Shown here one piece after another: positions 7,477 through 27,396 of a stretch of 30,967 nucleotides of DNA; positions within the stretch are counted from its first letter, which is position 1; every line of letters begins with the position of its first letter. The stretch covers positions 1-30,967 of IMG/VR virus record IMGVR_UViG_3300048030_000536. One strand, given 5' to 3'. The notes under the pieces were generated by a model. That model was not told the origin of the DNA. It did no database searches and was given only the letters and a program-made list of their open reading frames with translations. Source of the stretch: a virus. The translations under genes and the position numbers were made by a program.

Positions 7477-7505
7477 AATCTAGTTGATTTTTTAATTTAT
7501 TGCAA
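7477..7505 (-). promoter_or_regulatory. Early leaderless promoter for 7285-7470
   Basis: On the - strand: TTGCAA (7500-7505), 17-bp spacer, TAGATT (7477-7482), 6 nt, ATG. Confidence 0.65.
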
Positions 7506-7517
7506 GCTAAAAACGAT

Positions 7518-7721: not shown

Positions 7722-7727
7722 AAGTAA

Positions 7728-7756
7728 AAACTACCACAGAAACCGGCAAAACACAA
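7728..7756 (-). promoter_or_regulatory. Early leaderless promoter for 7518-7721
   Basis: On the - strand: TTGTGT (7751-7756), 17-bp spacer, TAGTTT (7728-7733), 6 nt, ATG. AGTTGAA of element E7 ends 8 bp before the -35 box. Confidence 0.6.
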
Positions 7757-7762
7757 GCCTAA

Positions 7763-7825
7763 AATTCAACTATTTTATTGCACAATCCGCTCGCGGGGGG
7801 GCCCGAGTTGGATCGGGCAACTTTT
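7763..7825 (-). repeat. Element E7: G/C-core cassette
   Basis: Read on the - strand: TTGCCCGATCC (7810-7820) pairs with GGATTGTGCAA (7778-7788) with one wobble and one mismatch. An inner CTCG/CGAG stem closes the GGGCCCCCC loop. Then come AAAATAG and TTGAA. The end arm merges with the stop codon of 7825-8442. Confidence 0.88.
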
Positions 7826-8442: not shown

Positions 8443-8470
8443 AATTTTATTTTTTAAGCAATTAGATTTG

Positions 8471-8498
8471 AGTTTATATAAATTTTTTTTTCTGTCAA
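8471..8498 (-). promoter_or_regulatory. Candidate promoter for 7825-8442
   Basis: On the - strand: TTGACA (8493-8498), 16-bp A-rich spacer, TAAACT (8471-8476); TATAAA (8474-8479) is an alternative. It leaves a leader of about 20-28 nt, so it is not leaderless. The -35 box overlaps the stop codon of 8495-8695. Confidence 0.45.
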
Positions 8499-8695
8499 GC
8501 ATTTCTTTCTACTGACTTCCAACCATAAGCTAAAACTTTGTCATTATAGCGAGCTTGTGAAAGCATAGCCTTAAGGTCAGAAATTTTTGCATTGATCCAA
8601 TCAATTTCGCTTTGATCCATTTTACCTTGCCACATTGCAAGTTGGTTTTTTTCTATTGCGATTTCGTTTTTTATTTGTTCTGTTGTCTTAATCAT
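8495..8695 (-). CDS. Hypothetical helical protein
   Basis: A 66-aa protein opening with ATGATTAAGACA, with a helical N-terminal two-thirds (TTEQIKNEIAIEKNQLAMWQGKMDQSEIDWINAKISDLKAML). A leaderless promoter lies directly upstream. Unknown function. Confidence 0.66.
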   Translation of the reverse strand: MIKTTEQIKNEIAIEKNQLAMWQGKMDQSEIDWINAKISDLKAMLSQARYNDKVLAYGWKSVERNA

Positions 8696-8701
8696 ATTTA
8701 C

Positions 8702-8730
8702 AATCTATTATATATTTTAGCAAAAGTCAA
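8702..8730 (-). promoter_or_regulatory. Early leaderless promoter for 8495-8695
   Basis: On the - strand: TTGACT (8725-8730), 17-bp spacer, TAGATT (8702-8707), 6 nt, ATG. A TATAAT also occurs in the spacer, but at a poor distance. Confidence 0.7.
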
Positions 8731-8733
8731 ACT

Positions 8734-8823
8734 TTATTTTACTTTTTTTTGAGTTTTTTTAAGTTTGAAGGCGAGGAGAATTTTTTCTCTTTCTGTGAGT
8801 GGTTGTCTATCTTTTTGATTCAT
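8734..8823 (-). CDS. Small basic protein (29 aa)
   Basis: A 29-aa Lys-rich peptide (MNQKDRQPLTEREKILLAFKLKK...), first gene of block C. It is placed like other leaderless genes: about 5 nt after a -10-like box, under an element (E8) whose sequence is the same as that driving 6425-6652. Its stop falls just before the -35 box of the next gene. Short, so moderate confidence. Confidence 0.5.
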   Translation of the reverse strand: MNQKDRQPLTEREKILLAFKLKKTQKKVK

Positions 8824-8828
8824 ACCTA

Positions 8829-8857
8829 AACATCGCACAGAAACCCCGAAAAGTCAA
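8829..8857 (-). promoter_or_regulatory. Early promoter for 8734-8823
   Basis: On the - strand: TTGACT (8852-8857), 17-bp spacer, weak GATGTT (8829-8834), 5 nt to the ATG. The -35 region is identical to that at 6682-6687. Confidence 0.5.
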
Positions 8858-8861
8858 GAAA

Positions 8862-8929
8862 AACTTTCAACTATTTTATTGCACAATTCGCTCGCGGGGG
8901 GGCCCGAGTTGGATCGGGCAACTTTTTAG
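8862..8929 (-). repeat. Element E8: G/C-core cassette
   Basis: Nearly identical to E6: 8851-8895 matches 6681-6725 base for base. Read on the - strand: TTGCCCGATCCAACTC, core GGGCCCCCCC, CGAGCGAATTGTGCAATAAA, then ATAGTTGAA. It separates blocks B and C. Confidence 0.88.
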
Positions 8930-8933
8930 TTGG

Positions 8934-9242
8934 TTAAAACACAAGAAGATCTGGCTCAGCAGTATTAGAAGCGAACCAGTCGGATGGGTTAATTTCTTGA
9001 CCATTTAGTACAGGCTCGAATTTGTACTGATAGACGCCCGCGTTAGCTATGCCGTTGACGCGTTCGCGTGTGGTGGGTGTATTCCATCCCGCAAGCGACC
9101 ATCTGACAAGCCCGTCAGGATCGCGTTTGACAATTGCGTTACCATGCAGCCAAACGGTTTTGCCGTCTGTCTCGGTGTTGCCGACTTTTAAAGATGTGCC
9201 TTGCTCGAAGGCTGCTTTGATTTGTGCTGTTACTTTTCGCAT
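8934..9242 (-). CDS. Conserved phage hypothetical protein
   Basis: A 102-aa protein with GNTETDGKTVWLHGNAIVKRD (about residues 22-42), then LVRWSLAGWNTPTTRERVNG and a C-terminal acidic tail. This pattern (GNTxTDG...LxLHGNxIA..., AGWxTxTTRxRLNG) recurs in small phage proteins of unknown function (from memory). More GC-rich than its neighbours. The start is 2 nt from the stop of the upstream gene, so probably coupled; no own promoter seen. Last gene of block B. Confidence 0.72.
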   Translation of the reverse strand: MRKVTAQIKAAFEQGTSLKVGNTETDGKTVWLHGNAIVKRDPDGLVRWSLAGWNTPTTRERVNGIANAGVYQYKFEPVLNGQEINPSDWFASNTAEPDLLVF

Positions 9243-9244
9243 AA

Positions 9245-9448
9245 TTATTTTGTTTCGTTTTTTCTTTGTTTGTGAAGGATTGCTTGCAATTGTTTTCTTG
9301 CTTCCTGTATTGCATGCAACGCATCCAACACAGCTTCGCCTTGTGTGAATGTTTTCATTTCTGCATTAGCAAGGAAGTTCAGATTTCCTTCGGCTTTCGA
9401 AAGAGCGAGTCCGAGTTCTAGTTCGATGAATCTTTTTTGTTCTGTCAT
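9245..9448 (-). CDS. Hypothetical helical protein
   Basis: A 67-aa protein, MTEQKRFIELELGLALSKAEGNLNFL and onward, strongly helical with a Lys/Gln-rich C-terminus. It opens with ATGACAGA, like 6652 and 7274. Leaderless promoter upstream; the downstream gene is coupled. Resembles 7518-7721 in size and pattern (ELxxGIxLAxxxGxxxFL), possibly the same family. Confidence 0.65.
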   Translation of the reverse strand: MTEQKRFIELELGLALSKAEGNLNFLANAEMKTFTQGEAVLDALHAIQEARKQLQAILHKQRKNETK

Positions 9449-9454
9449 AGTATT

Positions 9455-9483
9455 ACTTTAAGAAATTTTTTGTGCAATTGCAA
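9455..9483 (-). promoter_or_regulatory. Early leaderless promoter for 9245-9448
   Basis: On the - strand: TTGCAA (9478-9483), 17-bp spacer, TAAAGT (9455-9460), 6 nt, ATG. Confidence 0.62.
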
Positions 9484-9500
9484 GCTAAAAGTGAATTATT

Positions 9501-9692
9501 TTAAGCTATCCATTCGACAAGTTCAAACTTTCTAGGCAGTCCAAACTTGGCAAGATCTTTGTTCAAGTCTTCAATCGTTGCGTGATGTTCGCATTTCATC
9601 ATTACATTTGAGCTGATCAGCTCGCCTGTCTTGCGGTCAATTATATTTACTTTGGCAATGAAGCCGTTTACTTTATTATTTGTCTTAATCAT
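9501..9692 (-). CDS. Hypothetical protein
   Basis: A 63-aa protein opening with ATGATTAAGACA. The frame runs 6 codons further upstream, but that part holds the -10 region, so the start at 9692 is preferred. Beta-rich (NGFIAKVNIIDRKTGELISSNVMMKCEHHATIEDL), probably a small beta-sheet domain. NIIDRKTGE here resembles NIDRKTGRA in 10103-10309. First gene of block B. Confidence 0.65.
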   Translation of the reverse strand: MIKTNNKVNGFIAKVNIIDRKTGELISSNVMMKCEHHATIEDLNKDLAKFGLPRKFELVEWIA

Positions 9693-9700
9693 ATACCTAC

Positions 9701-9729
9701 AAGGTAGCACATCAGGTCAGAAATTGCAA
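9701..9729 (-). promoter_or_regulatory. Early promoter for 9501-9692
   Basis: On the - strand: TTGCAA (9724-9729), 17-bp spacer, TACCTT (9701-9706), 8 nt to the ATG. Confidence 0.5.
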
Positions 9730-9749
9730 GCAAAAAGTGAAAAAAGATT

Positions 9750-9810
9750 CTCTTATTTTATTGCACAATTCAACCGCCGGGGGGCCCGAGTTGGATCGGG
9801 CAACTTTTTA
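9750..9810 (-). repeat. Element E9: G/C-core cassette
   Basis: Read on the - strand: end arm TTAAAAAGTTGCCCGATCC, AACTC, core GGGCCCCCC (9779-9787 on +), GGCGGTTGAATTGTGCAATA. The usual AGTTGAA is replaced here. The end arm contains the stop codon of 9808-9885. Confidence 0.85.
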
Positions 9811-9885
9811 GTCAGTTAGTAGATCGCTAAACATAAAGTAGAATACGAGAGACATATTGGCGAAAAAGATAATTTCTAAGATCAT
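9808..9885 (-). CDS. Micro membrane protein (25 aa)
   Basis: A 25-aa peptide, almost entirely hydrophobic (MILEIIFFANMSLVFYFMF then SDLLTD): a single transmembrane segment. It lies 19 nt after the stop of 9905-10063 and has no clear own promoter. Its TAA forms the edge of element E9, as the stops of other block-end genes do, which supports it. Unrelated in sequence to the MEL...FRG pair. Confidence 0.5.
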   Translation of the reverse strand: MILEIIFFANMSLVFYFMFSDLLTD

Positions 9886-9904
9886 AATTTTTTAGTTGTT
9901 TAGG

Positions 9905-10063
9905 TTACTTATTACTTGAGAGAATAGGTGAGCGAGTGCGTTGGCTTAATTCTTGAGCTATTTCTAAAGCCTTCGCATAGCTTTTCGCGTTGTCAACGAG
10001 CTTGCCGTTGTAAAAAACATTGAACCAATTTTGGAAGTTTGGGTTTCTGAATACATTAATCAT
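9905..10063 (-). CDS. Hypothetical small protein
   Basis: A 52-aa protein, MINVFRNPNFQNWFNVFYNG then KLVDNAKSYAKALEIAQELS. A short beta-hairpin then helix, reminiscent of small phage domains that recur with a KxxxAxxLAxxLA helix. It opens ATGATTAAT like the window-first gene. It has a promoter with a 16-17-bp spacer and 7-8 nt to the ATG. Confidence 0.58.
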   Translation of the reverse strand: MINVFRNPNFQNWFNVFYNGKLVDNAKSYAKALEIAQELSQRTRSPILSSNK

Positions 10064-10070
10064 AATTATT

Positions 10071-10099
10071 TATTCTAAAGGTTTACTAGCAAAGGTCAA
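10071..10099 (-). promoter_or_regulatory. Early promoter for 9905-10063
   Basis: On the - strand: TTGACC (10094-10099), then TAGAAT at a 16-bp spacer (10072-10077) or AGAATA at 17. The ATG follows after 7-8 nt. Confidence 0.5.
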
Positions 10100-10102
10100 G
10101 CC

Positions 10103-10309
10103 TTATTGCCAAATTGTTTCCACATCGTCGTGGATTTGAGAGAAAGAAATGTCTTGCTCTTCCGCAAGTATTCTGTCAAGGTATGGAGCTCGACCTGTTT
10201 TGCGGTCGATGTTCGCAGAACGAACTCGTGGATATTCTTGGGATGGGTTATCCCAAACTTTAACGCTGTAGTGGGTTGACCACTTTTTAATTCTTATTTT
10301 CTTAATCAT
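10103..10309 (-). CDS. Hypothetical basic protein
   Basis: A 68-aa protein, MIKKIRIKKWSTHYSVKVWD then a polar helical end (AEEQDISFSQIHDDVETIWQ). It opens ATGATTAAGA. First gene of the - strand early region; element E10 lies upstream. The central NIDRKTGRAPY is shared in part with 9501-9692. Function unknown. Confidence 0.62.
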   Translation of the reverse strand: MIKKIRIKKWSTHYSVKVWDNPSQEYPRVRSANIDRKTGRAPYLDRILAEEQDISFSQIHDDVETIWQ

Positions 10310-10317
10310 ATGTAATT

Positions 10318-10346
10318 ACATTAATCTTTTTTTTTAAAAATTGCAA
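10318..10346 (-). promoter_or_regulatory. Early promoter for 10103-10309
   Basis: On the - strand: TTGCAA (10341-10346), 17-bp spacer, TAATGT (10318-10323), 8 nt to the ATG. Confidence 0.5.
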
Positions 10347-10364
10347 GTAAAAAGCGAAAAAAGA

Positions 10365-10406
10365 TTCAACTATTTTATTGCACTATACCCCCACCCCCGG
10401 TATGAC
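10365..10406 (-). repeat. Element E10: start-arm copy with a divergent core
   Basis: Read on the - strand: ATACCGGGGGTGGGGGTAT, then AGTGCAATAAAATAGTTGAA. The start arm is conserved; the GGGCCCCCC core is replaced by a G-rich stretch between ATACC and GGTAT. No end arm is seen on the far side, which faces the late region rather than an early block. Confidence 0.7.
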
Positions 10407-10416
10407 CCTACCCATT

Positions 10417-10430
10417 AAATGAATTCATTT
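10417..10430. repeat. 14-bp perfect palindrome
   Basis: AAATGAATTCATTT, in the switch region; a related ATGAAATTCAT follows near 10477. Could be an operator. Confidence 0.4.
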
Positions 10431-10596
10431 CCTGTATTAGTTTTGTGAGAAGTGCGGGGGGTGCCTTTTTTCAATATGAAATTCATCTTATAAATTACAA
10501 TATATATGTTCAACTAAAAAAAAATACGGGGCCTATATAAAAATAATCAATTTATATATAAAACAATAAGGCTTGCCTCATAAAAAAATAAAAAAC

Positions 10597-10607
10597 GTGT
10601 ACTATTA
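10597..10607 (+). promoter_or_regulatory. Late-type motif upstream of phoH
   Basis: CGTGTACTATTA. Here the motif is 30 nt before the ATG at 10627, further than usual. TAGTATAATATATAAA lies between them and could itself be a -10-like sequence. Confidence 0.4.
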
Positions 10608-10626
10608 TGTTAGTATAATATATAAA

Positions 10627-11361
10627 ATGCCTCGACGCAAGAAAAAACCGGAAATCGTGAATGAGGATGATATCGAAAGAATTCGTACCTCATTAACCAA
10701 AACAAATATAAAACTTAAACAAATAAGTTTAACGGACAAACAAAAACAATTATTAAAAATTATCTTTGACAAAGATAGTAAAATAATATTTATTAGTGGT
10801 CCCGCTGGAACAAGTAAAACATATGTTGCAATATATGGAGCCTTGCAATTATACAACATGAATAATGAGCGCGGAATTACTTATGTTCGAACAATTGCAG
10901 AGAGTGGTGAAAAAAGTCTTGGAGCGTTGCCTGGCGAAATGGCGGAAAAAATCAATCCATACATGATGCCAATGAATGAAAAACTAGATGAATTATTAAT
11001 TCCTGGTCAAGCAAGTATAGTAAAAGATAAAGAAATAGTTAAAGGTATGCCTATCAACTACTTACGCGGAGCAAGTTGGCGCGACGAGATTGTAATCGCG
11101 GATGAATCTCAAAATTTCACATTTAAAGAATTAACAACATTAATGACACGTCTTGGTCGCGGCAGTAAATTAATTATTTGCGGTGACCCTATGCAAAGTG
11201 ATATTAATGGGAAAAGTGGATTTGCAGATATGTACTCTGTGTTTAATGATGAAGATAGTCGCGAGAAAGGAATACATACTTTTCATTTCGGAGCAGAAGA
11301 TATTCAAAGAAGTGAAATACTTAAGTATGTAATAACTAAAATTCAAAATCATAAAAAATAG
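10627..11361 (+). CDS. phoH: PhoH-like P-loop ATPase
   Basis: A 244-aa PhoH-family NTPase, common in marine and freshwater phages; the family is linked to RNA metabolism, but its phage role is unsettled. Walker A GPAGTSKT at residues 58-65, Walker B VIADESQN at 156-163 (D159, E160), then sensor-like IICGDPMQSD at about 183-192. Length fits the single-domain phage PhoH. A basic N-terminus (MPRRKKKPE) precedes the domain. I chose the ATG at 10627; an in-frame TTG at 10573 is unlikely. First gene of the late-oriented module. Confidence 0.92.
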   Translation: MPRRKKKPEIVNEDDIERIRTSLTKTNIKLKQISLTDKQKQLLKIIFDKDSKIIFISGPAGTSKTYVAIYGALQLYNMNNERGITYVRTIAESGEKSLGALPGEMAEKINPYMMPMNEKLDELLIPGQASIVKDKEIVKGMPINYLRGASWRDEIVIADESQNFTFKELTTLMTRLGRGSKLIICGDPMQSDINGKSGFADMYSVFNDEDSREKGIHTFHFGAEDIQRSEILKYVITKIQNHKK

Positions 11362-11937: not shown

Positions 11938-13320
11938 ATGGCCGATTCAAAGATATCAGATTTACCAACAATATCAAATCTAAGCTCAAACTCAGAGGTT
12001 ATTATTGCATTTGGGGGATCAAATTACAAAGTAAAAATTTCAGATTTACTAAACACAACTTCTGCAATATATACTTCAACAGTAGGATTTATTGGAGATT
12101 CTTCGAGTGGAGCTATTGAAGGAGGTCAAATATATTTTGGTTTACCTGGTATTAACCAAAGTGAATTATCTTCAAGTCCAGAAGGCAACGGTTGGAATAT
12201 CGATTGTTTTAGAGATATAGATGGTGGATATGGATTTGGTGCTGGCGATAATACTTATTTGCGATTTTTCTCGCCTATGCAAAGATGGAGTTCCACGGCA
12301 GGCGGACTCTTAGACCCTATACTAATGACTCCAAGAGGAGGTCTATACGCTAATGGTTTTGTTAATCGACTGTATCATAATATAACTTATTCAAGGCGTA
12401 GCGTGATAGGTGGAGGTTCTGGCGCATCAAAGGGAGATGTTATCATGCAAGCAAATTTAGGACTCACTAATCTTGATGAAGGCGATGCGATTAATGTAAC
12501 TTACGGTACAGGAAATCCTACATTTATATCGTACACCGGAGGAGCATCTGCGGGCATGCGTATATCAACGGTGTATAAACCTGACGGTTCCGAGACTAGC
12601 ACCGCTATAAGAAACACAGATATATTTAATGAAGGAAGTTATGGAACTCTTCACATTACAAAACCAGGAAAAACTTCAAATTCAACAATTCTTACTCTCA
12701 CTGTAGATGGAGTATTGAATACTATTGGCGGAGGAGCTTCTGACGAAAGAGTCAAAAAAGACATAGAATCCTTAAGTGAAGCTGAAAAAAATGTAGCTTT
12801 AAAAATAAAAGCTAACATGAAAAAATTCAGAAGAACTGATCAAATAGAAGAAGGAGAAAAACTTAAGATTGGTGCTATCGCACAAGAAGTTGAGCAATTT
12901 TTTAACGAAGAGGGTCTAGACTATAAAGATTATTCAATTATTCACACGGAAAAAAGGTATGCTTTATTTGAAGGAGACAAAATAATCAAACACGAGTTAC
13001 CTTCCGACATTGAAAATACAGAAGTAGAAGAACAAAAATCTAAAACTCAAGTTATATTAAAAGACGGCACTGAATATATCGGCGACGTTACTTCTTGGTT
13101 TTCAGAAGAAGAATGTGCAGAGTGTGTAAGTCATGGTATGACAAGAGATGAGTACCTTAATACTAAAATTTGCATACATATTGATGAGGATAAATATGAA
13201 GTTATTGCGCGCGAAGATATTGCTTCACAAAAAATTCTTCCACCAAAAGGTTGGGTTGAAGTAGACTTTTTTAGAATAGATTACGATCAACTTTTGGCAT
13301 TTATAATTTCAGCTTTATAA
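11938..13320 (+). CDS. Tail fibre with C-terminal peptidase S74 chaperone domain (1)
   Basis: A 460-aa receptor-binding-type fibre. Residues 1-40 (ADSKISDLPTISNL...EVIIAFGGSNYKVKISDLL) form the anchor shared by six genes here. A Gly/Ser-rich beta region follows (about 40-262). The C-terminal intramolecular chaperone begins near ASDERVKKDI with Ser268 and Lys273, the dyad of the self-cleaving S74 family. AIAQEVEQFFNEEGLD follows, and the end is LLAFIISAL. An insertion of about 110 residues with an acidic, Cys-containing stretch lies before the end, making this the longest of the three. Released chaperone would leave a mature fibre of about 267 residues. Confidence 0.88.
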   Translation: MADSKISDLPTISNLSSNSEVIIAFGGSNYKVKISDLLNTTSAIYTSTVGFIGDSSSGAIEGGQIYFGLPGINQSELSSSPEGNGWNIDCFRDIDGGYGFGAGDNTYLRFFSPMQRWSSTAGGLLDPILMTPRGGLYANGFVNRLYHNITYSRRSVIGGGSGASKGDVIMQANLGLTNLDEGDAINVTYGTGNPTFISYTGGASAGMRISTVYKPDGSETSTAIRNTDIFNEGSYGTLHITKPGKTSNSTILTLTVDGVLNTIGGGASDERVKKDIESLSEAEKNVALKIKANMKKFRRTDQIEEGEKLKIGAIAQEVEQFFNEEGLDYKDYSIIHTEKRYALFEGDKIIKHELPSDIENTEVEEQKSKTQVILKDGTEYIGDVTSWFSEEECAECVSHGMTRDEYLNTKICIHIDEDKYEVIAREDIASQKILPPKGWVEVDFFRIDYDQLLAFIISAL

Positions 13321-13326
13321 TATATC

Positions 13327-14316
13327 ATGGCTATTAAAATATCAGAATTAAACTCGAACACAGCACCTAATCAAGATTCCGAGATTGCTATTGCATATGG
13401 AGGATCAAGTCGTAAAGTAAAAATACAAGATCTATTTAAAGGGTGGGATCCTGCGGATTCAGGTGATGGGGCGATTAATTTTGGTAATGCTTCAACTTCT
13501 GTTTTTGGCATGTCAATTCATGGAGGAAATCTTTCTGGAAATATTGCTAGGTTTTCTGTAGGAAATAGCGGTGCGAGCCAAGCGAATTCTAAGGCTATAA
13601 CCGGAGAATCCGGATCCGCGGGTGGCCCGTGTTCTGTTTTTATACATAATAATTATAATGACGGAGGTAGCGCAATTATTCAATTACTAGCTAGGTCAGG
13701 TGGAGGATTAAGTACAGCTTGTAATATTGATATGAGTTATAATATCAAGGCGTTTCAAATTGCATTTAACCAAGGTCAGCAAAATGGAATTAGGGTTGTA
13801 GACGGAGCTACTCAAGGAACAACGAGTAATCCAATAGTAGATGGTTCTGCTGTAACAGGCATACATGACAATAAGACATCTATGGGTAATGCTGGTTTTC
13901 GTTGGACTCAATTACACGCTGCAACCAGTACTATTGCTACTTCTGATATTAATCTTAAAGATGATATTGAAGATTTATCGCAAAGCGAAAGAAATGCAGC
14001 TTCCAAAATTAAAAATTCAATCAAAAAATATCGATGGAAAGACGCAAAAGAGCAAAAAGGAGAAAATGCTAGAATACATGTAGGCGTAATTGCTCAAGAA
14101 GTGCAAAAAATCTTTGAGGATGAGGGTTTAGATGCTCATCGATATGCAATATTCTGTGAAGATACTTTTTGGAAAGGTGAAGAAGAGATGGGTTCAGAAG
14201 GAGAAACGCGAATGATGCCAGTTACATCTCAAACGGAAAAAGAGGGTTACGAAAAAGTTACTAGGTTAGGAGTGAGGTACGAACAACTTTTGGCGTTTAT
14301 AATTTCAGCTTTATAA
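13327..14316 (+). CDS. Tail fibre with C-terminal peptidase S74 chaperone domain (2)
   Basis: 329 aa. N-terminal anchor AIKISELNSNTAPNQDSEIA to about residue 38, then a Gly/Asn/Ser-rich beta region. The S74 domain begins at TSDINLKDDI with Ser206 and Lys211, then HVGVIAQEVQKIFEDEGLD, and ends LLAFIISAL. The 3-prime end of the gene (about 14284-14320) is almost identical in DNA to that of the gene before, indicating recent duplication or exchange. It starts 6 nt after the previous stop and has no GTGTA motif of its own. Confidence 0.88.
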   Translation: MAIKISELNSNTAPNQDSEIAIAYGGSSRKVKIQDLFKGWDPADSGDGAINFGNASTSVFGMSIHGGNLSGNIARFSVGNSGASQANSKAITGESGSAGGPCSVFIHNNYNDGGSAIIQLLARSGGGLSTACNIDMSYNIKAFQIAFNQGQQNGIRVVDGATQGTTSNPIVDGSAVTGIHDNKTSMGNAGFRWTQLHAATSTIATSDINLKDDIEDLSQSERNAASKIKNSIKKYRWKDAKEQKGENARIHVGVIAQEVQKIFEDEGLDAHRYAIFCEDTFWKGEEEMGSEGETRMMPVTSQTEKEGYEKVTRLGVRYEQLLAFIISAL

Positions 14317-14320
14317 TATC

Positions 14321-15487
14321 ATGGGAACATCAATATCACAATTAACAGAGGACGTAAGACCTGATTCAGATCAATATAAAATCCCTGTCGCATACAATGG
14401 AAATAATTATAGAGTAGATCTTAGATATCTATTTAATTTTGCCGATTCAACTGTCGGAACTCTATATATGAGAAATTCAATATTTAGATTCGGAGCAGGC
14501 GTTGATAGTTCTACTGCAGAGAGTACTGCCCTGGCAAATGGAGCGCCAATATTGTATGTTGATGAGGGTCTCAATTTAAATTTTAGGAAAATAAATAGCC
14601 AAGGTTACGCTAGAATATATGTACAAAATTCCTCCACAGATGCAAAGGGCGCATCTATAGGTCTTGCTGCAGCAAGAAACCCTCTAAATGGATATGTAGG
14701 ATATAGATACTCTAACCGTACGAGTAATCCTGTTGATGGGGAGAATTACCTTGAACTAATAAATTCAAACGTTAAATCTTCTCAAGTAACAATGCAGTGG
14801 CAATGTGATTCTAATCGTTTTATAATGAATGCGCTTTATTACCCCGAAAATCCAAATAGTAGTGCTGGTAGTAATGGAGTGCAAGTATCAACTTCAAATG
14901 GTCAAGATTTTGGAGGATTAGTAGGGGTATATTTATATCCAAAGATTACATCTTCTACTAATTCTTCAAGCGTTATTCAAGAAAGAGCTCTCATTCCTGC
15001 GTATACACATCAGGATGGTATCACAATGAATCTAGGTGATTCAAGTAGAATATGGAAAAATGTATATGCAACCAACGGAACAATTCAAACTTCTGATAAA
15101 AATTTAAAACAAGACATATCTTCCTTGGAAGACGCAGAAAGAAAGGTCGCATTTAAACTAAAAGATATGGTTAAAAAATTCCGCTGGATTGAATCTGTAA
15201 AAGATAAAGGAGAAGATGCAAGAATTCATGTAGGATTTATCGCTCAAGAAGTAGAAAAAGCTTTTAGCGAAGAGGGTTTAGACGCAAGAAGATACAGTCT
15301 GTTTTGCGTAGATAAAATTTACGATGTTTTTAGAGATGGAGTTTCATTGAATCAAAGCCAAGCTCAAAACGAATGGTTTGAAACAGAAGATGAAAGTGAG
15401 ACTGACGAAGGTATTACATATGTAGAAAAAGAAAAATACTCTCTTCGTTTAGATCAAGTTTTAGCATTTGTAATTTCAGCTTTGTAA
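14321..15487 (+). CDS. Tail fibre with C-terminal peptidase S74 chaperone domain (3)
   Basis: 388 aa. N-terminal anchor GTSISQLTEDVRPDSDQYKI to about residue 39, beta-rich middle, S74 domain from TSDKNLKQDI (Ser258, Lys263) through HVGFIAQEVEKAFSEEGLD to the C-terminal VLAFVISAL. The three fibres share both ends but differ in the middle, the part that would contact the host. It starts 4 nt after the previous stop. Confidence 0.88.
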   Translation: MGTSISQLTEDVRPDSDQYKIPVAYNGNNYRVDLRYLFNFADSTVGTLYMRNSIFRFGAGVDSSTAESTALANGAPILYVDEGLNLNFRKINSQGYARIYVQNSSTDAKGASIGLAAARNPLNGYVGYRYSNRTSNPVDGENYLELINSNVKSSQVTMQWQCDSNRFIMNALYYPENPNSSAGSNGVQVSTSNGQDFGGLVGVYLYPKITSSTNSSSVIQERALIPAYTHQDGITMNLGDSSRIWKNVYATNGTIQTSDKNLKQDISSLEDAERKVAFKLKDMVKKFRWIESVKDKGEDARIHVGFIAQEVEKAFSEEGLDARRYSLFCVDKIYDVFRDGVSLNQSQAQNEWFETEDESETDEGITYVEKEKYSLRLDQVLAFVISAL

Positions 15488-15512: not shown

Positions 15513-15824
15513 ATGAATTTAATTATAGAATCTTGCTTATCAGAACCTCCTAGTGAAATTTATTGTTTTCGCGATATTACATTGTATGCTCGCACATATA
15601 TTTTTGATGATATTTTATTAGAATGTCCACCAGGAACGCGCACTGCTTATTGGAATTGGTTAAAGCATTATGGCGCGCATGACTTTATATCTTATCTTGT
15701 TCGAAATACTGAAAATGAAACTGGGTATACAATAAAAACGGCCAACGATGCTAATATCACCGTTGACCGTATTGACGTCAGAAATTTAAACGATATTATT
15801 CTTCGCCTACAGGCTCTTCGCTAG
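15513..15824 (+). CDS. Hypothetical protein
   Basis: A 103-aa soluble protein, MNLIIESCLSEPPSEIYCFR and onward, with two Cys in the first 18 residues and a third (LECPPGTRTAYWNW) further on. Mixed alpha/beta. Its own late-type motif precedes it. Its last 29 nt overlap the convergent gene on the other strand. No family recognised. Confidence 0.65.
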   Translation: MNLIIESCLSEPPSEIYCFRDITLYARTYIFDDILLECPPGTRTAYWNWLKHYGAHDFISYLVRNTENETGYTIKTANDANITVDRIDVRNLNDIILRLQALR

Positions 15825-16095
15825 GCTCTGGAGGAGGTTTATTAGCCTCTTCAAGGGCTGACTTAAACTGTTCCTCAGAGAAACCTTCAACTGCATTTTT
15901 AGAGCGGTTAATGGCTTGCGTTTGAAGAAGCTGAATTAACGTATTAACTGGAACGCCAGATAGTAAGTCTACCATGGTAGCGTTTTTTAAGTAATCATTA
16001 GCAATGAATGTTACCACTTTTTCCATATCTTCATCAGAAGGAGTATGCGCGTTATCATTTTTTGTTTCAGTTTGTTCTGCTGTTGCTGTTGTCAT
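15796..16095 (-). CDS. Hypothetical acidic protein
   Basis: A 99-aa protein. Low-complexity Thr/Asp/Glu N-terminus, a helical core (MEKVVTFIANDYLKNATMVDLLSGVPVNTLIQLLQTQAINR), then a Pro/Glu-rich tail (PPPEPSEEPVGEE). The core would suit a small tail-assembly or scaffold-like oligomer, but this is a guess. It forms a - strand pair with 16102-16308 and overlaps the convergent 15513-15824. Confidence 0.65.
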   Translation of the reverse strand: MTTATAEQTETKNDNAHTPSDEDMEKVVTFIANDYLKNATMVDLLSGVPVNTLIQLLQTQAINRSKNAVEGFSEEQFKSALEEANKPPPEPSEEPVGEE

Positions 16096-16101
16096 AATAT
16101 A

Positions 16102-16308
16102 TTATTGTTGATTAAATTGATTATTATATAATTGTTGATTGTTATTTCTATAAATTTGTTTAGTAAATAAATTATGAAATAATACTTGTTGTTGTAGTGT
16201 TCTTATTTCTTTATTTTGCTGATTCACCAATTCATTCTGATCCCATGCAAACCACATCATAAAAAATAAAGCCAATAGTAAACTCACGATAGTTAAATGA
16301 TCATTCAT
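16102..16308 (-). CDS. Small membrane protein with coiled coil
   Basis: A 68-aa protein: an N-terminal transmembrane helix (LTIVSLLLALFFMMWFAW, about residues 5-22), then a Gln/Asn-rich coiled-coil stretch (QNELVNQQNKEIRTLQQQ) and an Asn/Gln/Tyr tail. This is the topology of an inner-membrane spanin (Rz-like), but it lacks a recognisable partner and is short, so only a possibility. 6 nt before 15796-16095. Confidence 0.62.
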   Translation of the reverse strand: MNDHLTIVSLLLALFFMMWFAWDQNELVNQQNKEIRTLQQQVLFHNLFTKQIYRNNNQQLYNNQFNQQ

Positions 16309-18162: not shown

Positions 18163-19653
18163 ATGAGATACTGGATATTATTTTTAATTAGTTTTAAGCT
18201 ATTTTCTGCGGAATATACCAATATTCAACATACAGGGGGGTCCAAAAATAGGTTTGATTTAGTTTTTATTGGAGATAGATATTTTGAAAATGAAATGGAT
18301 AAATATTTTGAGGATGTAAATTATATATGGGAAGCGTTACCTAGGCATTATGCATTCTGGAATCGTTATAAGAATTTTTTCAATGTTCACAGAATTGATA
18401 TGATTAGTCGTCTTAATCGACCTGAAGATATTAATGATCCATCAAATTCTGCTTTCGGCATAGATTTTAATTTAGGTTATTGGGATGGTTGGAATGATTG
18501 GCAAAAATGTTTGCGTATAGCCGCGGAGTTTGGTATTGAAAATGAGACTACTTGTATTTTAACTAATCGAATTTTTAATGTTGGAACAGCGCTAGATAGA
18601 TCAAGTACGAAACTAATATATTCTGCGCCATGGGCTAGTATAGTAGCTCACGAAATAGGTCATATTCTTGGTATGGCTGGCGATGAATATTCTGGAGAGA
18701 TTCAAGAATATATGTTTGATTATGCTTTTAATATGGCTCGATCTGATGCCGAGGCTAGGCAAAGGTGGGGTCATTGGATTGGATACAAAGATCCTATTAG
18801 TGGATATGAAATAAATCAGCCATACATGAGGGGTGGAACAAATTATTTTGTGCCAACTAAGTCAAATGGTCTAATGCATAATAGTTCAACTGGAGACTTT
18901 CATGCAGTTAATAGAGAGCAAATGGTTCTAGAGCTATATAAGAGGGTCTCACCTATAGATAGTCATACCGAAAACAATAAAACAATAAAACCAAATATTA
19001 TTCTAGAATTAAATGTTGTAGATAAAGACGTAATATCCACAGCGTGGATTATCAATAATAAAATTATATCTACTGCTGAAAGTTTGGATCTCTCTGAATT
19101 AGATATAGATGAAAACACTACAGTTTATGGATGTGCATGGGATAACGCTTTGAATTTAGATTATTTATCAAACGACAGAGGTGGGTGGGTAAGAAAAGAT
19201 GAGCGAGGGCTGCTTTCTCAAATTGTTTCTTGGAAAATATCTAGTATCTCTTCGAATCATTTAGAAGGTGATAATGATCATTTATTGCCTTTATTGCTTC
19301 ATAACACCTTCAATGATAATTTTTTTAATTCAGATGAGGTAATTACTTTTAGGGGTGGAGATGAAAAAAAATACAACTGGACTGAATTGAGAGAAGAAAA
19401 AACTGAGAACGAAAACATCGTGCAACAAGAAACTGTTCAGACTCAACCTGCATCTTATGGTTGGGTTGATGGAGGTTTTTTTGGAATATTTTACCCTCTA
19501 GATAATGGCTGGATTTACCACATAGAGCACGAATGGATGTACCTTGCAGCAGACTGGATGTGGATTGAATCTAAACTTGATTGGTTTTGGACTAGAGAGG
19601 ATTGTTATCCTTATTTTTATTCCAACAATTTAAAGACTTGGATTTTACTTTAA
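18163..19653 (+). CDS. Secreted M64-like zinc metallopeptidase (IgA peptidase family type)
   Basis: 496 aa. The N-terminal hydrophobic stretch (YWILFLISFKLFSA, residues 3-16) is a likely Sec signal peptide. The catalytic site HEIGHILGMAGDEY at 163-176 gives the HExxH zinc motif with a third ligand or Asp in GDEY, as in peptidase M64 (HExGHxxxxxxDEY). The last 60 residues are a Trp/Tyr-rich tail (GWVDGGFFGIFYPLDNGWIY; WMWIESKLDWFWT; YPYFY; WILL). I associate that tail with secreted proteins of Verrucomicrobiota, from memory only. Expected to act outside the cytoplasm. It has its own early-type leaderless promoter, unlike all neighbours, and ends overlapping the convergent 19650-19841. It looks like host-derived cargo. 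Confidence 0.82.
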   Translation: MRYWILFLISFKLFSAEYTNIQHTGGSKNRFDLVFIGDRYFENEMDKYFEDVNYIWEALPRHYAFWNRYKNFFNVHRIDMISRLNRPEDINDPSNSAFGIDFNLGYWDGWNDWQKCLRIAAEFGIENETTCILTNRIFNVGTALDRSSTKLIYSAPWASIVAHEIGHILGMAGDEYSGEIQEYMFDYAFNMARSDAEARQRWGHWIGYKDPISGYEINQPYMRGGTNYFVPTKSNGLMHNSSTGDFHAVNREQMVLELYKRVSPIDSHTENNKTIKPNIILELNVVDKDVISTAWIINNKIISTAESLDLSELDIDENTTVYGCAWDNALNLDYLSNDRGGWVRKDERGLLSQIVSWKISSISSNHLEGDNDHLLPLLLHNTFNDNFFNSDEVITFRGGDEKKYNWTELREEKTENENIVQQETVQTQPASYGWVDGGFFGIFYPLDNGWIYHIEHEWMYLAADWMWIESKLDWFWTREDCYPYFYSNNLKTWILL

Positions 19654-19841
19654 CTTTTTTTAGATTTAATTCTTTTAATTTCTTCTGGCAAAATTTTAAT
19701 CACTTTTTCAGGCTGATTACCCATCATTAATTCTGCGGGAGTAGAGCCATTTAGTCTATCATTCTCTGTTTTTAACCACCTAGTAGATTGATAAGAATTT
19801 AAATTTTTGCTTAATATTTCGAGTATAGACTTTTGAGACAT
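19650..19841 (-). CDS. Standalone MbcA/ParS/Xre antitoxin C-terminal-like domain (DUF2384)
   Basis: A 63-aa protein. TRWLKTENDRLNGSTPAELM (about residues 20-39), then EKVIKIL, matches the toxin-binding domain found at the C-terminus of Xre/MbcA/ParS antitoxins (W-L-x-x-x-N-x-x-L-x-G-x-T-P-x-E-L). The DNA-binding N-terminal half of those antitoxins is missing and no toxin gene lies nearby. It has a late-type GTGTA motif 14 nt before the ATG. It could act as an anti-toxin or an anti-defence protein, or be a reused dimerisation domain. Motif-based, not searched. Confidence 0.72.
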   Translation of the reverse strand: MSQKSILEILSKNLNSYQSTRWLKTENDRLNGSTPAELMMGNQPEKVIKILPEEIKRIKSKKS

Positions 19842-19855
19842 ATAACATATTACAC
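19842..19855 (-). promoter_or_regulatory. Late-type GTGTA promoter for 19650-19841
   Basis: On the - strand: AGTGTAATATGTTAT, then the ATG; G (19855) is 14 nt before the A. Confidence 0.55.
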
Positions 19856-19869: not shown

Positions 19870-20478
19870 TTAAATTACAATGTATTTTATATGTTCTTGA
19901 TTTGGATATTGTTCCAGTAAAACATGCTTACCTGTTTGAGGTTCGAATATATACCATCCTTGTGTTGTGAATACAATATTTAATGCATGTAAACCTCCTG
20001 CGGGTATTCCCCCGAATTCTTCTACTTGATCTACGATAACTAAGCCTACAGCAGGCTCTACTTTGTCGTTGCTTTTATAGCTTGATATCGAAAATAATGA
20101 TTTGTATAGCATTGCAAAATTATCACAATCATGGCTTTCTCCTTGGTCGATCGGTAGTATTCCGTTTTCAAATTTCAACTTTTCAAACCAATTATTAAAT
20201 TTTTTATATAAGAAAAAATCAACATATCTATATCTTGAATCTAATCTTAGAAATTGTAAGTCTTTGGGGGTATGTATTTTTATATTATTAAACCCTCTTC
20301 CGTATGCAAAATGATATGCAAAATCTCTGTTATCTAGAAAAGAATCTCTTTTTTCTTCTGTAGTTGGAATTGATTTTATTTCTTTTAGGTCTGTTTTAAT
20401 GCAAGAACTTAATAGCCAAGTAGATAATACAACGCCAGAAAATACCGCAAGGCACGATACGCAAAATTTATTTTTCAT
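19870..20478 (-). CDS. Lipoprotein with transglutaminase-like cysteine-hydrolase signature
   Basis: A 202-aa protein with a lipoprotein-type signal: hydrophobic segment to residue 25 and lipobox LSSC (Cys26). The body has DCDNFAMLY (Cys118), then GGLHALNIVF (His164), then GWYIFEPQTGK (Glu179, Gln181). This Cys...His...(E/D)PQ order is that of transglutaminase-like or related cysteine peptidases and amidases (CDNFA...GGHA...EPQ). Probably at the envelope or periplasm; might serve lysis or cell-wall entry. It diverges from 20520-20954 with a shared 41-bp region holding two late-type motifs. Confidence 0.68.
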   Translation of the reverse strand: MKNKFCVSCLAVFSGVVLSTWLLSSCIKTDLKEIKSIPTTEEKRDSFLDNRDFAYHFAYGRGFNNIKIHTPKDLQFLRLDSRYRYVDFFLYKKFNNWFEKLKFENGILPIDQGESHDCDNFAMLYKSLFSISSYKSNDKVEPAVGLVIVDQVEEFGGIPAGGLHALNIVFTTQGWYIFEPQTGKHVLLEQYPNQEHIKYIVI

Positions 20479-20519: not shown

Positions 20520-20954
20520 ATGGGTCCTATATTGAATACTATAATTGGAGCAGGAATTAAACTAGCATGTAATTTAATCAATGCGTGGCTCGACCAAAAA
20601 AGGCAGGATCAATTAGCTTTAGCTTCAAGAGATGAAAAAATGATGCAAGCTTTAATAGATAGCCAAAATGAAAATTCTAAAGATCCTTTTGTCAAAGTTA
20701 CAAGAAGAATACTATTTATGAGTATTACATTTACTATGTGTTTTTTAATGATTTATTATGCAATGAATCCTCATATATCATACGATCTAATCGTACCTAA
20801 GGGAGATGGATCAAGGTTCGGTTTTTTTGGTTGGATTTTTGGAGCTAAGGATTGGGAGCTAGTAAAAATGACTGGAGGTCTAATGCTAGCATCGTTTATG
20901 GATTTATGTTTTATGGTGGTGGGATTTTATGCAATACCGAGTAAAAGAAGATGA
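20520..20954 (+). CDS. Membrane protein, holin candidate
   Basis: A 144-aa protein with a hydrophobic/amphipathic start (MGPILNTIIGAGIKLACNLI), a charged linker, and two transmembrane helices (about residues 64-83 and 118-139). The tail is basic (SKRR). The arrangement and the GGLMLASFMDLCFMVVGFY segment recall phage proteins often placed in lysis modules, and its neighbours are a lipoprotein hydrolase and a small membrane lipoprotein. Holin function is inference from size and context. Overlaps the next gene by ATGA. Confidence 0.6.
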   Translation: MGPILNTIIGAGIKLACNLINAWLDQKRQDQLALASRDEKMMQALIDSQNENSKDPFVKVTRRILFMSITFTMCFLMIYYAMNPHISYDLIVPKGDGSRFGFFGWIFGAKDWELVKMTGGLMLASFMDLCFMVVGFYAIPSKRR

Positions 20955-21813: not shown

Positions 21814-22179
21814 ATGGCTTTTTCTTACTGTCCTCATTGTGGGTTTAAAAATATGTATTCTATGCAAGCGCCAAAATTTTGTGGTGGTTGTGGAGAAAGT
21901 TTGAGTATATTGTCTGCTGCAAAAACTCAAAAATCTATTTCACGCAAACAGGTTTCTCCCCAAAGAAATCAAGTGGTTGATGATCCTGACGGAGTTGACA
22001 TTTACGAAGTGCCTCACATTTCAAAATTGTCGTATAGTATAGAAACAGATAAAAACAAATTCGATTTAAAAGATTTAGTTCCATTGGAAGCTCTTGAGGA
22101 ATTTAATGAAGATGAGGGAAAGTCAACTGTAAAAAAACAAGCAACAAAAAAGAAGCGTGGAAGACCAGCAAAGCGATAG
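21814..22179 (+). CDS. Zinc-ribbon protein with C-terminal AT-hook
   Basis: A 121-aa protein. Two CxxC knuckles (Cys6/Cys9 and Cys23/Cys26; CPHCG...CGGCG) form an N-terminal zinc ribbon. The middle is polar and acidic. The C-terminus KKKRGRPAKR carries an AT-hook core (RGRP). Both ends would bind nucleic acid or RNA polymerase. Placed directly before the sigma-like gene, which starts inside its last 23 nt. A role as transcription accessory factor is plausible, but inference. Confidence 0.72.
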   Translation: MAFSYCPHCGFKNMYSMQAPKFCGGCGESLSILSAAKTQKSISRKQVSPQRNQVVDDPDGVDIYEVPHISKLSYSIETDKNKFDLKDLVPLEALEEFNEDEGKSTVKKQATKKKRGRPAKR

Positions 22180-22900
22180 TTTTTCATACGAGGACAAAGC
22201 TGAAGAGATTGACATAGAGATTAAAAAAAGAAGAGGCAAGTGGTTTTTAGATTCTCTTGCTTGGTTCGACTTTGAAGATGTAGAGCAAATTATAAAAGCT
22301 CATATTTATAAAAAATGGCACCAATGGGATCAACGAAGGTCTTTGAAGCCGTGGGTTAACAAAATTATAACTAATCAAATGAAAAACATCTTGCGCAATA
22401 ACTATAGTAACTTCGTTAGACCTTGTTTGAATTGCCCATTTAACCAATCAGGCCCCGCTCAAGATGGTTGTAGTCATTCTCTATGCGGTTTCACAAAAAG
22501 CGGGCTGCAAGACTCGACTTGTCCATTGTACGCAAAATGGGAACGAACAAAAAAATCTGCTTATGGAATTAAAATGGCTTTAGCTTTAGAAAACCATAGC
22601 CACGAAGTTGGGCAAATGCAAGACGGAAGCTTTGATATACAACAGTGTCAGGATAAATTAAATGAGTATATGAAAAAAGATTTATCCGAAAAACAGTTTA
22701 CCGTATACAAATTACTTTTCATTGATCATAAAAGTGAAGAAGAGGTTGCTAAAAAAATGGGTTATAAGACTTCCGAAAAAGGGAGAAAAGCGGGATACAA
22801 GCAAATTAAAAATCTTAAAAAAATATTTAAACAAAAAGCGCAAGAAATACTTGAAAAAGAAGATATTATTCCGGTAAAAAGTGTGATGCTATGGAGTTAA
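22157..22900 (+). CDS. Phage sigma-factor-like protein with inserted Cys cluster
   Basis: 247 aa, starting at GTG (22157) after AAGAAG. Residues about 29-85 (WFLDSLAWFDFEDVEQIIKA; KPWVNKIITNQMKNILRNNY) look like sigma region 2. A Cys-rich insert follows (Cys90, 93, 105, 110, 122; PCLNCPF...CPLYAKWE), probably zinc-binding. Residues about 175-225 (SEKQFTVYKLLFIDHKSEEE; VAKKMGYKT) fit a region-4 helix-turn-helix. The combination matches a phage sigma type that I recall from aquatic phages. It is the likely reader of the GTGTA late motif. Translation coupling with 21814-22179 is likely. Confidence 0.75.
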   Translation: MEDQQSDSFSYEDKAEEIDIEIKKRRGKWFLDSLAWFDFEDVEQIIKAHIYKKWHQWDQRRSLKPWVNKIITNQMKNILRNNYSNFVRPCLNCPFNQSGPAQDGCSHSLCGFTKSGLQDSTCPLYAKWERTKKSAYGIKMALALENHSHEVGQMQDGSFDIQQCQDKLNEYMKKDLSEKQFTVYKLLFIDHKSEEEVAKKMGYKTSEKGRKAGYKQIKNLKKIFKQKAQEILEKEDIIPVKSVMLWS

Positions 22901-24614: not shown

Positions 24615-25525
24615 ACATATGTAAAATATGTGGTGCAGAATTTACTTCAGAAAGAAGCCTGCACGCTCATTTGAAAACTCATAAAATTATGCTTGCAGAA
24701 TATTATACCAAGTATTATCCGCGATACAATCTATATAACGGAGACCCTTTACCGTTTAAAAAGAAAGACGAATACTTCTCTAAAGACTTTTCTACTCATT
24801 CTCAATTATTAAAATGGTGCGCAAGAGAACCAGCCGACATTGTAAAGCCGTATATTCTGGAATTATTAAAAAGAAGGATTGAGCAAAAACAATTAAATTT
24901 TGGTCCATCATATTTAGAATTGAAATTACATGAATTACCAACTATAGAAATATACAAAAAACATTTTGGGTCGTATACAGCTGCTTGCAAGGAAGCTAAT
25001 GTTAAACCTATGTTTAGCTCTCCTTTACCTAAAGCATGGGGGAACAGAATCGAAGATGTCGAGATATTCATTGATACACGAGAACAGCAACCTCTAGCAT
25101 TCCCTAGATCCCAGTCCCTGAAATTGGATTTTGGAGATTATGCTGTAGGGCAGGATCACTATGATTATACTTATGTAGATCGCAAAGGAGAGCAAGACTT
25201 TAAGTCTACATTAAGTAAAAATAATTTAGATAGATTTGAGTATGAATTGCAAAGAACAAAAGAATTTGATAGTTATTTGTTTATTGTTACAGAAAGTCCA
25301 ATTTGGCAAATAGAAAAAAATAATAGATGGGGCGCACATAAATCAAATTTAAAATATGTATATCATAACATGAGGGTACTTAATCATAAATTTTCAGGGC
25401 ATTGCCAATTTATATTTACGAAAAATAGAGAGCATAGTCAAAAAATTATTCCTAAGTTATTAGTATTAGGTAGAAAACTTTGGAATGTAGATTTGCAATA
25501 TTACATAGATAAGGATATTGTATAA
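24611..25525 (+). CDS. C2H2 zinc finger + homing-endonuclease-repeat + ERCC4-type nuclease
   Basis: 304 aa. A C2H2 finger at residues 4-24 (Cys4, Cys7, His20, His24). A stretch SYLELKLHELPTIEIYKKHF (100-119) then GSYTAACKEANV resembles a homing-endonuclease-associated repeat (LPS..tY..~FGS...A...A). The nuclease domain has IDTREQQPL (154-162), DFGDYAVG (173-180) and VDRKGEQDF (189-197), matching ERCC4/XPF-type GD...ERKxxxD with Asp for Glu at 190. Structure-specific DNA cleavage is expected. Location before TerL suggests use in concatemer branch removal during packaging. Ends on TAATG with TerL. Confidence 0.82.
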   Translation: MNICKICGAEFTSERSLHAHLKTHKIMLAEYYTKYYPRYNLYNGDPLPFKKKDEYFSKDFSTHSQLLKWCAREPADIVKPYILELLKRRIEQKQLNFGPSYLELKLHELPTIEIYKKHFGSYTAACKEANVKPMFSSPLPKAWGNRIEDVEIFIDTREQQPLAFPRSQSLKLDFGDYAVGQDHYDYTYVDRKGEQDFKSTLSKNNLDRFEYELQRTKEFDSYLFIVTESPIWQIEKNNRWGAHKSNLKYVYHNMRVLNHKFSGHCQFIFTKNREHSQKIIPKLLVLGRKLWNVDLQYYIDKDIV

Positions 25526-27396
25526 TGGCTTGGGAAACAGGAAAACAGTTATCTAGAAAAAGCGAAGAAGACTTCAATGAAAAGCTTTTAAAAATTGAAG
25601 GTTTTTTAGAAGAGAAGGAAGCTAAGCTTTTACTTTATCAATTCCTAAGAGAAAACATTACGTTTACTGCAGATTTAGTTAGTGGAGTCAAATTATTCCC
25701 TTTTCAGCATATGGCGATCAAGGCTATGTTTGAAACTGATTATTTTATGGGAGTATGGTCTCGGGGAATGAGTAAATCATTTACTACTGCAATATATGCT
25801 TATCTCGACGCGATATTAAATCAAGGTGTTGAGATTGGTATACTTTCTAAATCTTTTCGCCAAGCGAAAATGATATTTAAGAAAATTGAAGATATTGCAT
25901 CGAAGCCTGGCGCTACATATTTGTCTCAATGCATAACTCATAAATCAAAAAGCAATGATGAGTGGTTGCTTGAAATTGGTTCTAGCCGCATAAGAGCTCT
26001 GCCGCTTGGTGATGGTGAAAAACTACGGGGTTTTCGTTTCCATAGAATTATTATCGACGAGTTTGCTCTTATGCCTGAAAGAATTTATAATGAGGTTATT
26101 ATACCTTTCCTTAGTGTTGTTGAAAATCCGACACAAAGAGAAGAGTTGTATAATTTAGAGACAGATTTGATAGATAAGGGGGAGATGACTGAAGATGACA
26201 GGCATATCTGGCCAAATAATAAATTGATCGCATTATCTTCTGCAAGTTATAAGTTTGAATATATGTATAAAGCATACGAACAATTTGAAGAGCTTATTAT
26301 GAAGGGGGGAGATAAGCATTCTGATGCGCATAGGATCATTATGCAATTCAGTTACGACTGCGCTCCAAAACAGCTATATGATAAAAATTTGATAGAGCAA
26401 GCGAAGTCTACAATGAGCCAAAGTCAATTCGACAGAGAGTTTGGTTCTATATTTACAGATGACAGTAGCGGATATTTTAAAACTTCTAAAATGGCAGCAT
26501 GCACTTTGCAAGATGGAGAGAGACCTAATGTTGAAGTTTGTGGAGAAGTCGGAGAAAAGTATATACTGGCATTTGATCCGAGTTGGGCAGAGAGTGAGAG
26601 TAGTGACGACTTTGCAATGATGGTATTAAAATTAAATGACGATAAAAAAATTGGCACTGTAGTTCATAGCTATGCATTATCTGGAACAAACTTAAAACAA
26701 CATATATTTTATTTTTATTATTTACTAACTCATTTTAATATTGTATCTATTGTGGGAGATTATAATGGAGGAGTTCAGTTTATAAATGCATGCAATGAAA
26801 GTAGTTTATTTAAAAAGAATAAAATTAACATTGGATGTTTGAATACTAATTTTGATGATCTTGAACATTATCAACAAAAGCTTCTTGAAGGTAAAAGAGA
26901 ATATAATCTTGAAACAAGGCATATTTGTTATTTAAGAAAGCCAACAAGCCAGTGGATAAGATTAGCTAATGAATTACTTCAAGCTAATTTTGATCACAGA
27001 AGGATATATTTTGCATCTCGCGCAATCGACGATTCATATAACGAGCAAAGAAAAAAGAAAATACCAATACAAGATTTAAAATTTTTAAGAACTTCACAAA
27101 GTTTAGAAAGGCAGACTAACGCTGCAAAGATGATTGATTTCGTAGAACATCAATTTGATATGATTAATTTAATTAAAGCTCAGTGCGCTTTAATTCAGAT
27201 AACTACTTCAGCGGGAGGAACTCAAACCTTCGATCTACCTCCGAATTTAAAAAGGCAGACTGGCCCAGAAAAAGCAAGAAAAGATTCATATTCTGCATTA
27301 GTCCTTGGAAATTGGATGATTAAATTATATTATGATATGATGAATGTTCAAGTAAAAAATGTAAATTATACCTTTACTCCCATGTTTATAAACTGA
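25525..27396 (+). CDS. terL: Terminase large subunit
   Basis: A 623-aa DNA-packaging motor. ATPase: Walker A-like SRGMSKS (residues 79-85), Walker B IIIDEF (175-180, Asp178, Glu179). Nuclease: LAFDPSWAE with Asp351, IVGDYNGG with Asp412, and Asp587 in KDSYSALV; together they give the RNase-H-type acidic triad of TerL. Length fits the T4 gp17-type class. It starts on TAATG after the ERCC4-type nuclease gene. The next gene is the prohead protease; no portal gene follows, contrary to the usual terL-portal-protease order. Confidence 0.93.
   Translation: MAWETGKQLSRKSEEDFNEKLLKIEGFLEEKEAKLLLYQFLRENITFTADLVSGVKLFPFQHMAIKAMFETDYFMGVWSRGMSKSFTTAIYAYLDAILNQGVEIGILSKSFRQAKMIFKKIEDIASKPGATYLSQCITHKSKSNDEWLLEIGSSRIRALPLGDGEKLRGFRFHRIIIDEFALMPERIYNEVIIPFLSVVENPTQREELYNLETDLIDKGEMTEDDRHIWPNNKLIALSSASYKFEYMYKAYEQFEELIMKGGDKHSDAHRIIMQFSYDCAPKQLYDKNLIEQAKSTMSQSQFDREFGSIFTDDSSGYFKTSKMAACTLQDGERPNVEVCGEVGEKYILAFDPSWAESESSDDFAMMVLKLNDDKKIGTVVHSYALSGTNLKQHIFYFYYLLTHFNIVSIVGDYNGGVQFINACNESSLFKKNKINIGCLNTNFDDLEHYQQKLLEGKREYNLETRHICYLRKPTSQWIRLANELLQANFDHRRIYFASRAIDDSYNEQRKKKIPIQDLKFLRTSQSLERQTNAAKMIDFVEHQFDMINLIKAQCALIQITTSAGGTQTFDLPPNLKRQTGPEKARKDSYSALVLGNWMIKLYYDMMNVQVKNVNYTFTPMFIN

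Follow-up and report, generated by a model that had tools for sequence, protein, structure and literature searches.

A stand-alone antitoxin-type domain retained throughout a sampled lineage of marine phages may act as a late core binding protein

Genes and features of the locus

The window, that is, the whole stretch of DNA analysed here, is a viral record of 30,967 bases, whose main features are collected in Table 1. It contains a conserved block of genes encoded on one strand, which comprises the terminase, a nuclease-like protein of 304 aa, a protein of 350 aa, a sigma-like factor, a protein of 121 aa, a GAF-like protein, and a protein of 144 aa for which neither Pfam nor PHROGs provided a match. 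Next to this block, on the other strand, lies the gene for a protein of 63 aa which is the subject of this work. In a more divergent group of relatives, it is usually a gene for PhoH that adjoins the homologue of the 63-aa gene instead.

Several other genes of the window exhibit features of their own. The 496-aa protein, encoded in the tail region and found only in a minority of relatives, starts with a signal-peptide-like sequence. The product of the 202-aa accessory gene is lipoprotein-like and shows a weak lectin C-terminal match (E=0.0055), while the sigma-70-like factor holds a Cys-rich insert. The three consecutive tail-fibre/spike-like genes have near-identical spacers (tttataatttcagctttataatat), and the 99-aa gene is accompanied by a second small gene on the minus strand.

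Table 1. Position of the genes and promoter-like motifs of the window
Feature	Position	Strand	Remarks
PhoH-like ATPase	10573-11361	+	E=5e-45
Three consecutive tail-fibre/spike-like genes	11938-15487	+	match the same PHROGs
99-aa gene	15796-16095	-	weak phage tail chaperone match, PF23857 E=0.0043
Small gene beside the 99-aa gene	16102-16308	-	conserved in relatives
496-aa protein	18163-19653	+	N-terminal Peptidase_M64 (IgA peptidase) match, E=8e-9
63-aa stand-alone Xre/MbcA/ParS C-terminal (DUF2384, PF09722) domain protein	19650-19841	-
Promoter-like motif GTGTAATAT	19847-19855	-	14 nt before the ATG of the 63-aa gene
202-aa accessory gene	19870-20478	-	between the 144-aa and 63-aa genes in a minority of relatives
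Motif copy of the 202-aa gene	20495	-
Motif copy GTGTATATAA	20506-20515	+	14 nt before the 144-aa gene
Conserved 144-aa protein	20520-20954	+	divergent from the adjoining 63-aa gene in most relatives
Sigma-70-like factor	22157-22900	+	region 2, PF04542 E=3.4e-5; conserved in the relatives examined
Terminase	25525-27396

Identity of the domain

An earlier note on this DNA had described the 63-aa product as a standalone DUF2384-like toxin-binding domain, and had proposed a profile search for DUF2384 as one way to check it. That search yielded a match to the Pfam family PF09722 (Xre_MbcA_ParS_C) with E=3.5e-5 and 24.2 bits, which is borderline when taken alone, since the curated cut-off of the family is 24.5. 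A score just below the cut-off is also what could be expected from a convergent small helical protein that merely resembles the domain. However, PF09722 was matched individually by all 25 aligned homologues, some of them only 37-39% identical to the protein of the window. Among 12 large related records, each showed exactly one match, which reached the cut-off in two of the records and fell in an open frame of only 63-107 aa. Profile-profile comparison also argues against convergence: with hhalign, the phage profile aligned to 30 bacterial PF09722 domains with a probability of 92.3% over 35 columns, while the maximum obtained with 100 column-shuffled decoys was 11%. In the opposite direction, the bacterial PF09722 profile was compared with 2,325 ORFs of these phages, and the six top-ranking ORFs were all copies of the 63-aa gene. 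Sequence searches of the PDB with the protein or its profile returned nothing but spurious matches, ankyrin-type repeats among them.

The predicted fold points to the same family. A first AlphaFold model, built on 24 close homologues, had a pLDDT of 76 and gave no useful fold match, antitoxins included, a result that would also suit convergence; this was cured by adding distant homologues, and the model built on the diverse alignment reached a pLDDT of 92.6 and a pTM of 0.76. When this model was compared by Foldseek with 350,542 PDB chains (E up to 10), six hits were obtained, corresponding to MbcA, ParS (two chains), VPA0769, and the Xre protein from P. putida (two chains). Even though the single E-values are weak (best 0.8), the result is specific because all six chains are antitoxins of the PF09722 family. 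The Z values given by VIA-align (6.4, 5.6, 4.6, and 4.0) are moderate, being below 8, and are insufficient alone. Considering these data together, convergence is very unlikely, and the assignment of the 63-aa protein to PF09722, on which Pfam, hhalign, the fold model and Foldseek agree, can be regarded as established with high confidence, as the earlier note had claimed.

The nearest relative by Foldseek is MbcA (Rv1990c; PDB 6fkg), with a probability of 0.90 and a TM of 0.66 over the query; by VIA-align, 59 residues are aligned, with a Z of 6.4 and an rmsd of 2.8. Both proteins have in common the signature W[LM]xxxNxxL...PA[DE]L and an all-helical fold. Unlike MbcA, the 63-aa protein is phage-borne, has no N-terminal half and no adjacent toxin gene, and its C-terminus forms a longer, basic helix (IKRIKSKK) where MbcA finishes with EGVFV. 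The same domain is present in ParS (6d0h), VPA0769 (8gug), and P. putida Xre (9r35/6gw6), which were returned by Foldseek or VIA-align, as well as in NatR (8qnl), which was absent from the Foldseek hits. Each of these four antitoxins is paired with a RES toxin, whereas the phage protein is an orphan.

A real gene encoding the domain alone

The 63-aa gene starts with ATG, has exactly the coordinates given in the earlier note, and its stop overlaps by 4 nt that of the convergent gene for the 496-aa protein. Full-length homologues were found in IMG/VR contigs with identities of 52-95%, plus three at 37-39%, and their start sites agree with that of the 63-aa gene, whose position and orientation are also conserved in relatives. 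For the three closest pairs, dN/dS is 0.01-0.05, although values of up to 0.22 are obtained in some more distant pairs, in which synonymous sites are near saturation. Because the homologues are full-length, the position and orientation are conserved, and dN/dS is so low, the ORF is a real gene and not the product of chance.

The open frame in which the gene is located totals 74 aa, and similar frames are found in the relatives. This is too short for a helix-turn-helix (HTH) plus a PF09722 domain, so the domain stands alone, and the N-terminal DNA-binding half typical of RES-Xre antitoxins is absent, just as the earlier note had said. Its further statement that there is no toxin gene holds as to the relatives, since the RES toxin domain (PF08808) was found in none of 35 relatives' records, a set which may include fragments and to which the window's own record does not belong. 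PF18760 and PF03496, two other ADP-ribosyltransferase families that could provide a phage-encoded partner, were likewise not found in 12 relatives' records, which are possibly fragments too.

Distribution and selection

The gene was identified in about 70 IMG/VR marine viral contigs, in records of up to 211 kb and with identities of 37-95%. Its orientation is always opposite to that of the virion block, inside or beside which it lies, down to 37% identity. At least one of these viruses, represented by a record of 184 kb, is a contractile-tailed phage, because it encodes a tail sheath. A scan with divergent members added one extra contig (L198) and no new clade.

The core status of the gene was evaluated at 80 loci retrieved through the 350-aa protein, which correspond to the best matches of this bait (62-99% identity) and not to the whole lineage. 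Some of these loci were unscorable, either because they ended too early or because the 144-aa marker gene was not in the available piece; all of the 54 scorable loci carry the 63-aa gene. Therefore, the accessory or variable presence that is usual, though not strict, for a counter-defence protein was not observed. Together with the dN/dS values reported above, the gene is under strong purifying selection and shows no sign of an arms race.

Outside these contigs, no credible homologue was found among 50,697 phage records, which represent the cultured phages, and PHROGs gave no match either for the 63-aa protein or for the bacterial members of the PF09722 domain. The single match in GTDB, on a contig of a Bacteroidia MAG (JALRKL010000041.1, 1-549; L055), is limited to the first 24 residues, after which the frame continues as another protein, so that it was rejected as a probable assembly chimera. 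The first ~129 bases of this contig match the phage gene and its upstream region before the switch to the other protein. The 350-aa neighbour protein is absent from 395 genomes of the phylum of this contig, a result that is uninformative as to the host.

A promoter-like motif and the timing of expression

In most relatives, the 63-aa and the 144-aa genes diverge from a short common spacer, with GTGTA-type motifs directly before both starts. Of the 36 homologues of the 63-aa gene, 26 have the sequence GTGTA[AT]3 no more than 24 nt from their start, compared with 74 of 658 other ORFs from the same loci; the 10 without this strict motif include the three most divergent loci. In the window, the motif precedes by 14-17 nt the starts at 11938, 15513, and 16450, all in the tail region, and those at 19841(-), 20478(-), and 20520, and no AGTGTAATATA motif was found before the genes encoded in the first 10.5 kb.

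Two promoter-like classes can be distinguished along the window. In its left part (1-10500), several small-gene starts have CTTGAC/CTTGCAA-like boxes, while AGTGTAATATA precedes virion-type genes in the right part (10500-30967). The gene for the 496-aa protein has a box of the left type.

In the 184-kb relative, the motif precedes 13 of the 241 predicted genes, including those for the tail sheath and a tail-fibre-like virion protein. It is not exclusive to virion genes, as it is also found before a kinase and a Clp-like ATPase. The GTGTA-type motif may thus be a promoter that these phages use chiefly for late genes, for which the sigma-70-like factor of the window is a candidate reader (GTGTAATATA-type promoter). 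Since the AGTGTAATATA motif at the start of the 63-aa gene also precedes tail-fibre and tail-sheath genes, this gene is probably expressed late.

Conserved residues and the C-terminal end

The RES antitoxin NatR is reported to neutralise its toxin by means of a C-terminal helix that reaches into the NAD pocket (PMC11535050), and neutralisation through this helix has been described as the mode in other RES-Xre systems (PMC12457610). In an alignment of 13 bacterial PF09722 members, W26, P39, G48, V52, and G62 are invariant, with the last Gly located near the C-terminus. In the phage family, compared by eye from a separate alignment, the Trp and the Pro are invariant and the Val nearly so, and neither Gly is apparent at the corresponding positions. 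Its C-terminal end is instead a basic helix of the type found in the window protein, which is changed in the most divergent members. The phage protein thus lacks the Gly of the RES-plugging end, and by this loss it may no longer bind a RES toxin.

The invariant residues of the phage family are Y17, T20, W22, L23, K24, E26, N27, L30, P35, and A36, among which Y17, T20, K24, and E26, located in helix 2 and the loop after it, lack conservation among the bacterial members. Because the phage-invariant residues centre on this region, the conserved function of the family seems to sit on a face other than the toxin plug.

Possible roles of the protein

To our knowledge, the only established role of the PF09722 domain is toxin binding and dimerisation, as the toxin-binding half in RES-Xre pairs. 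Accordingly, the earlier note had suggested that a phage copy could block a host RES toxin-antitoxin defence. The data do not support this as the principal role, although it is a possible one: the gene is present at every scorable locus, its sequence is conserved, it lies opposite the virion block, it shares a motif with virion genes, and its product lacks the C-terminal Gly. We tentatively favour, with a confidence that falls just short of even, the reading in which an antitoxin domain has become established as a core binding protein of the late phase. We prefer such a domesticated domain, which would bind a constant partner, to a RES-toxin blocker because of its universality, its slow evolution, its late-type control, and a conserved face away from the plug. 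In addition, as the gene is carried by every checkable virus and is located among particle-building genes, its product may have a basic function late in infection, either instead of blocking bacterial defences or in addition to it.

According to this proposal of a late core binding protein, the toxin-binding domain of an antitoxin, deprived of its DNA-binding half, would have become a core protein in a lineage of large marine tailed phages. Being small and helical, it would most likely dock stoichiometrically onto a partner, as antitoxin domains physically do, and it would act during the late, virion-building phase. The partner would be constant from phage to phage, and could be either a late-made phage protein or a universal host protein. 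What speaks against this proposal is that a new partner is an extra assumption, given the established role of the domain mentioned above.

A less probable explanation, which nevertheless deserves serious consideration, is that the protein mimics an antitoxin and binds host RES-type NAD-consuming toxins once the labile antitoxin has decayed after host shut-off, keeping the cell alive until lysis. The RES-antitoxin fold with its signature motif, the proximity to MbcA in Foldseek, and the lack of a RES toxin in the 35 relatives' records are in agreement with this mimicry, as is the proposal that free-standing antitoxins of large aquatic phages serve in counter-defence (PMC12619734). T4 Dmd provides a precedent (PMC9503650). 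Against it stand the universality of the gene in the sampled lineage, its slow evolution, the motif of virion genes before its start, and the missing C-terminal Gly. Moreover, in one bacterial phylum that was sampled, and which may not be that of the host, PF09722 was detected in just 27 of 99 genomes. A universal gene is an odd response to so patchy a target, since it is not evident how a defence present in only some hosts would favour a late gene that is universal and evolves slowly. As a rule, genes for counter-defence are expressed early and occur patchily. Still, action as a late core protein and blocking of RES toxins are not mutually exclusive, and would be compatible if the RES-type target were itself universal.

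It is improbable that the lone domain hetero-oligomerises with host antitoxins or regulators of the Xre/MbcA type and alters their DNA binding, because, even though the NatR antitoxin of the NatR-NatT pair acts as an oligomer whose assembly state sets DNA binding (PMC11535050), an early and host-variable gene would be expected in that case, and neither property was observed.

Relation to known systems and significance

By its domain, the 63-aa protein is a member of PF09722, but as it lacks the HTH, the accompanying toxin gene, and the C-terminal Gly, it does not belong to the RES-Xre type of toxin-antitoxin systems. Even so, it may function in the manner of an antitoxin. T4 Dmd and the free-standing antitoxins of moraphages are, like the 63-aa protein, phage-encoded antitoxins or antitoxin-like proteins without a toxin. 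The fold of Dmd is different from that of the PF09722 domain. The moraphage antitoxins have been named as CcdA/HicB-like, with no mention of MbcA, ParS, or DUF2384 (PMC12619734). In its arrangement, the gene resembles that of bS21 in Bacteroidetes phages, a small core gene encoded opposite the terminase/capsid block and expressed with the structural genes (PMC9723584), although bS21 is a ribosomal protein and its function is unrelated.

The core status of the gene in this lineage, along with its apparently late-type control, goes beyond the earlier note and is of more interest than the domain assignment. A bolder extension, which we consider rather unlikely as it stands, is that this marine phage lineage depends on the stand-alone antitoxin domain as a core late protein, which might guard constitutively against NAD-consuming enzymes of the RES type, or might travel with the virion and be delivered when the next cell is infected. 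The PF09722 domain is here encoded on its own and has been strictly conserved throughout a marine phage lineage; PHROGs contained no match to it, and the phage records searched no credible one. Either the pressure from RES-type NAD-consuming toxins is so general that a gene for their inhibitor has become part of the phage core, or the domain binds in a second role that has yet to be charted.
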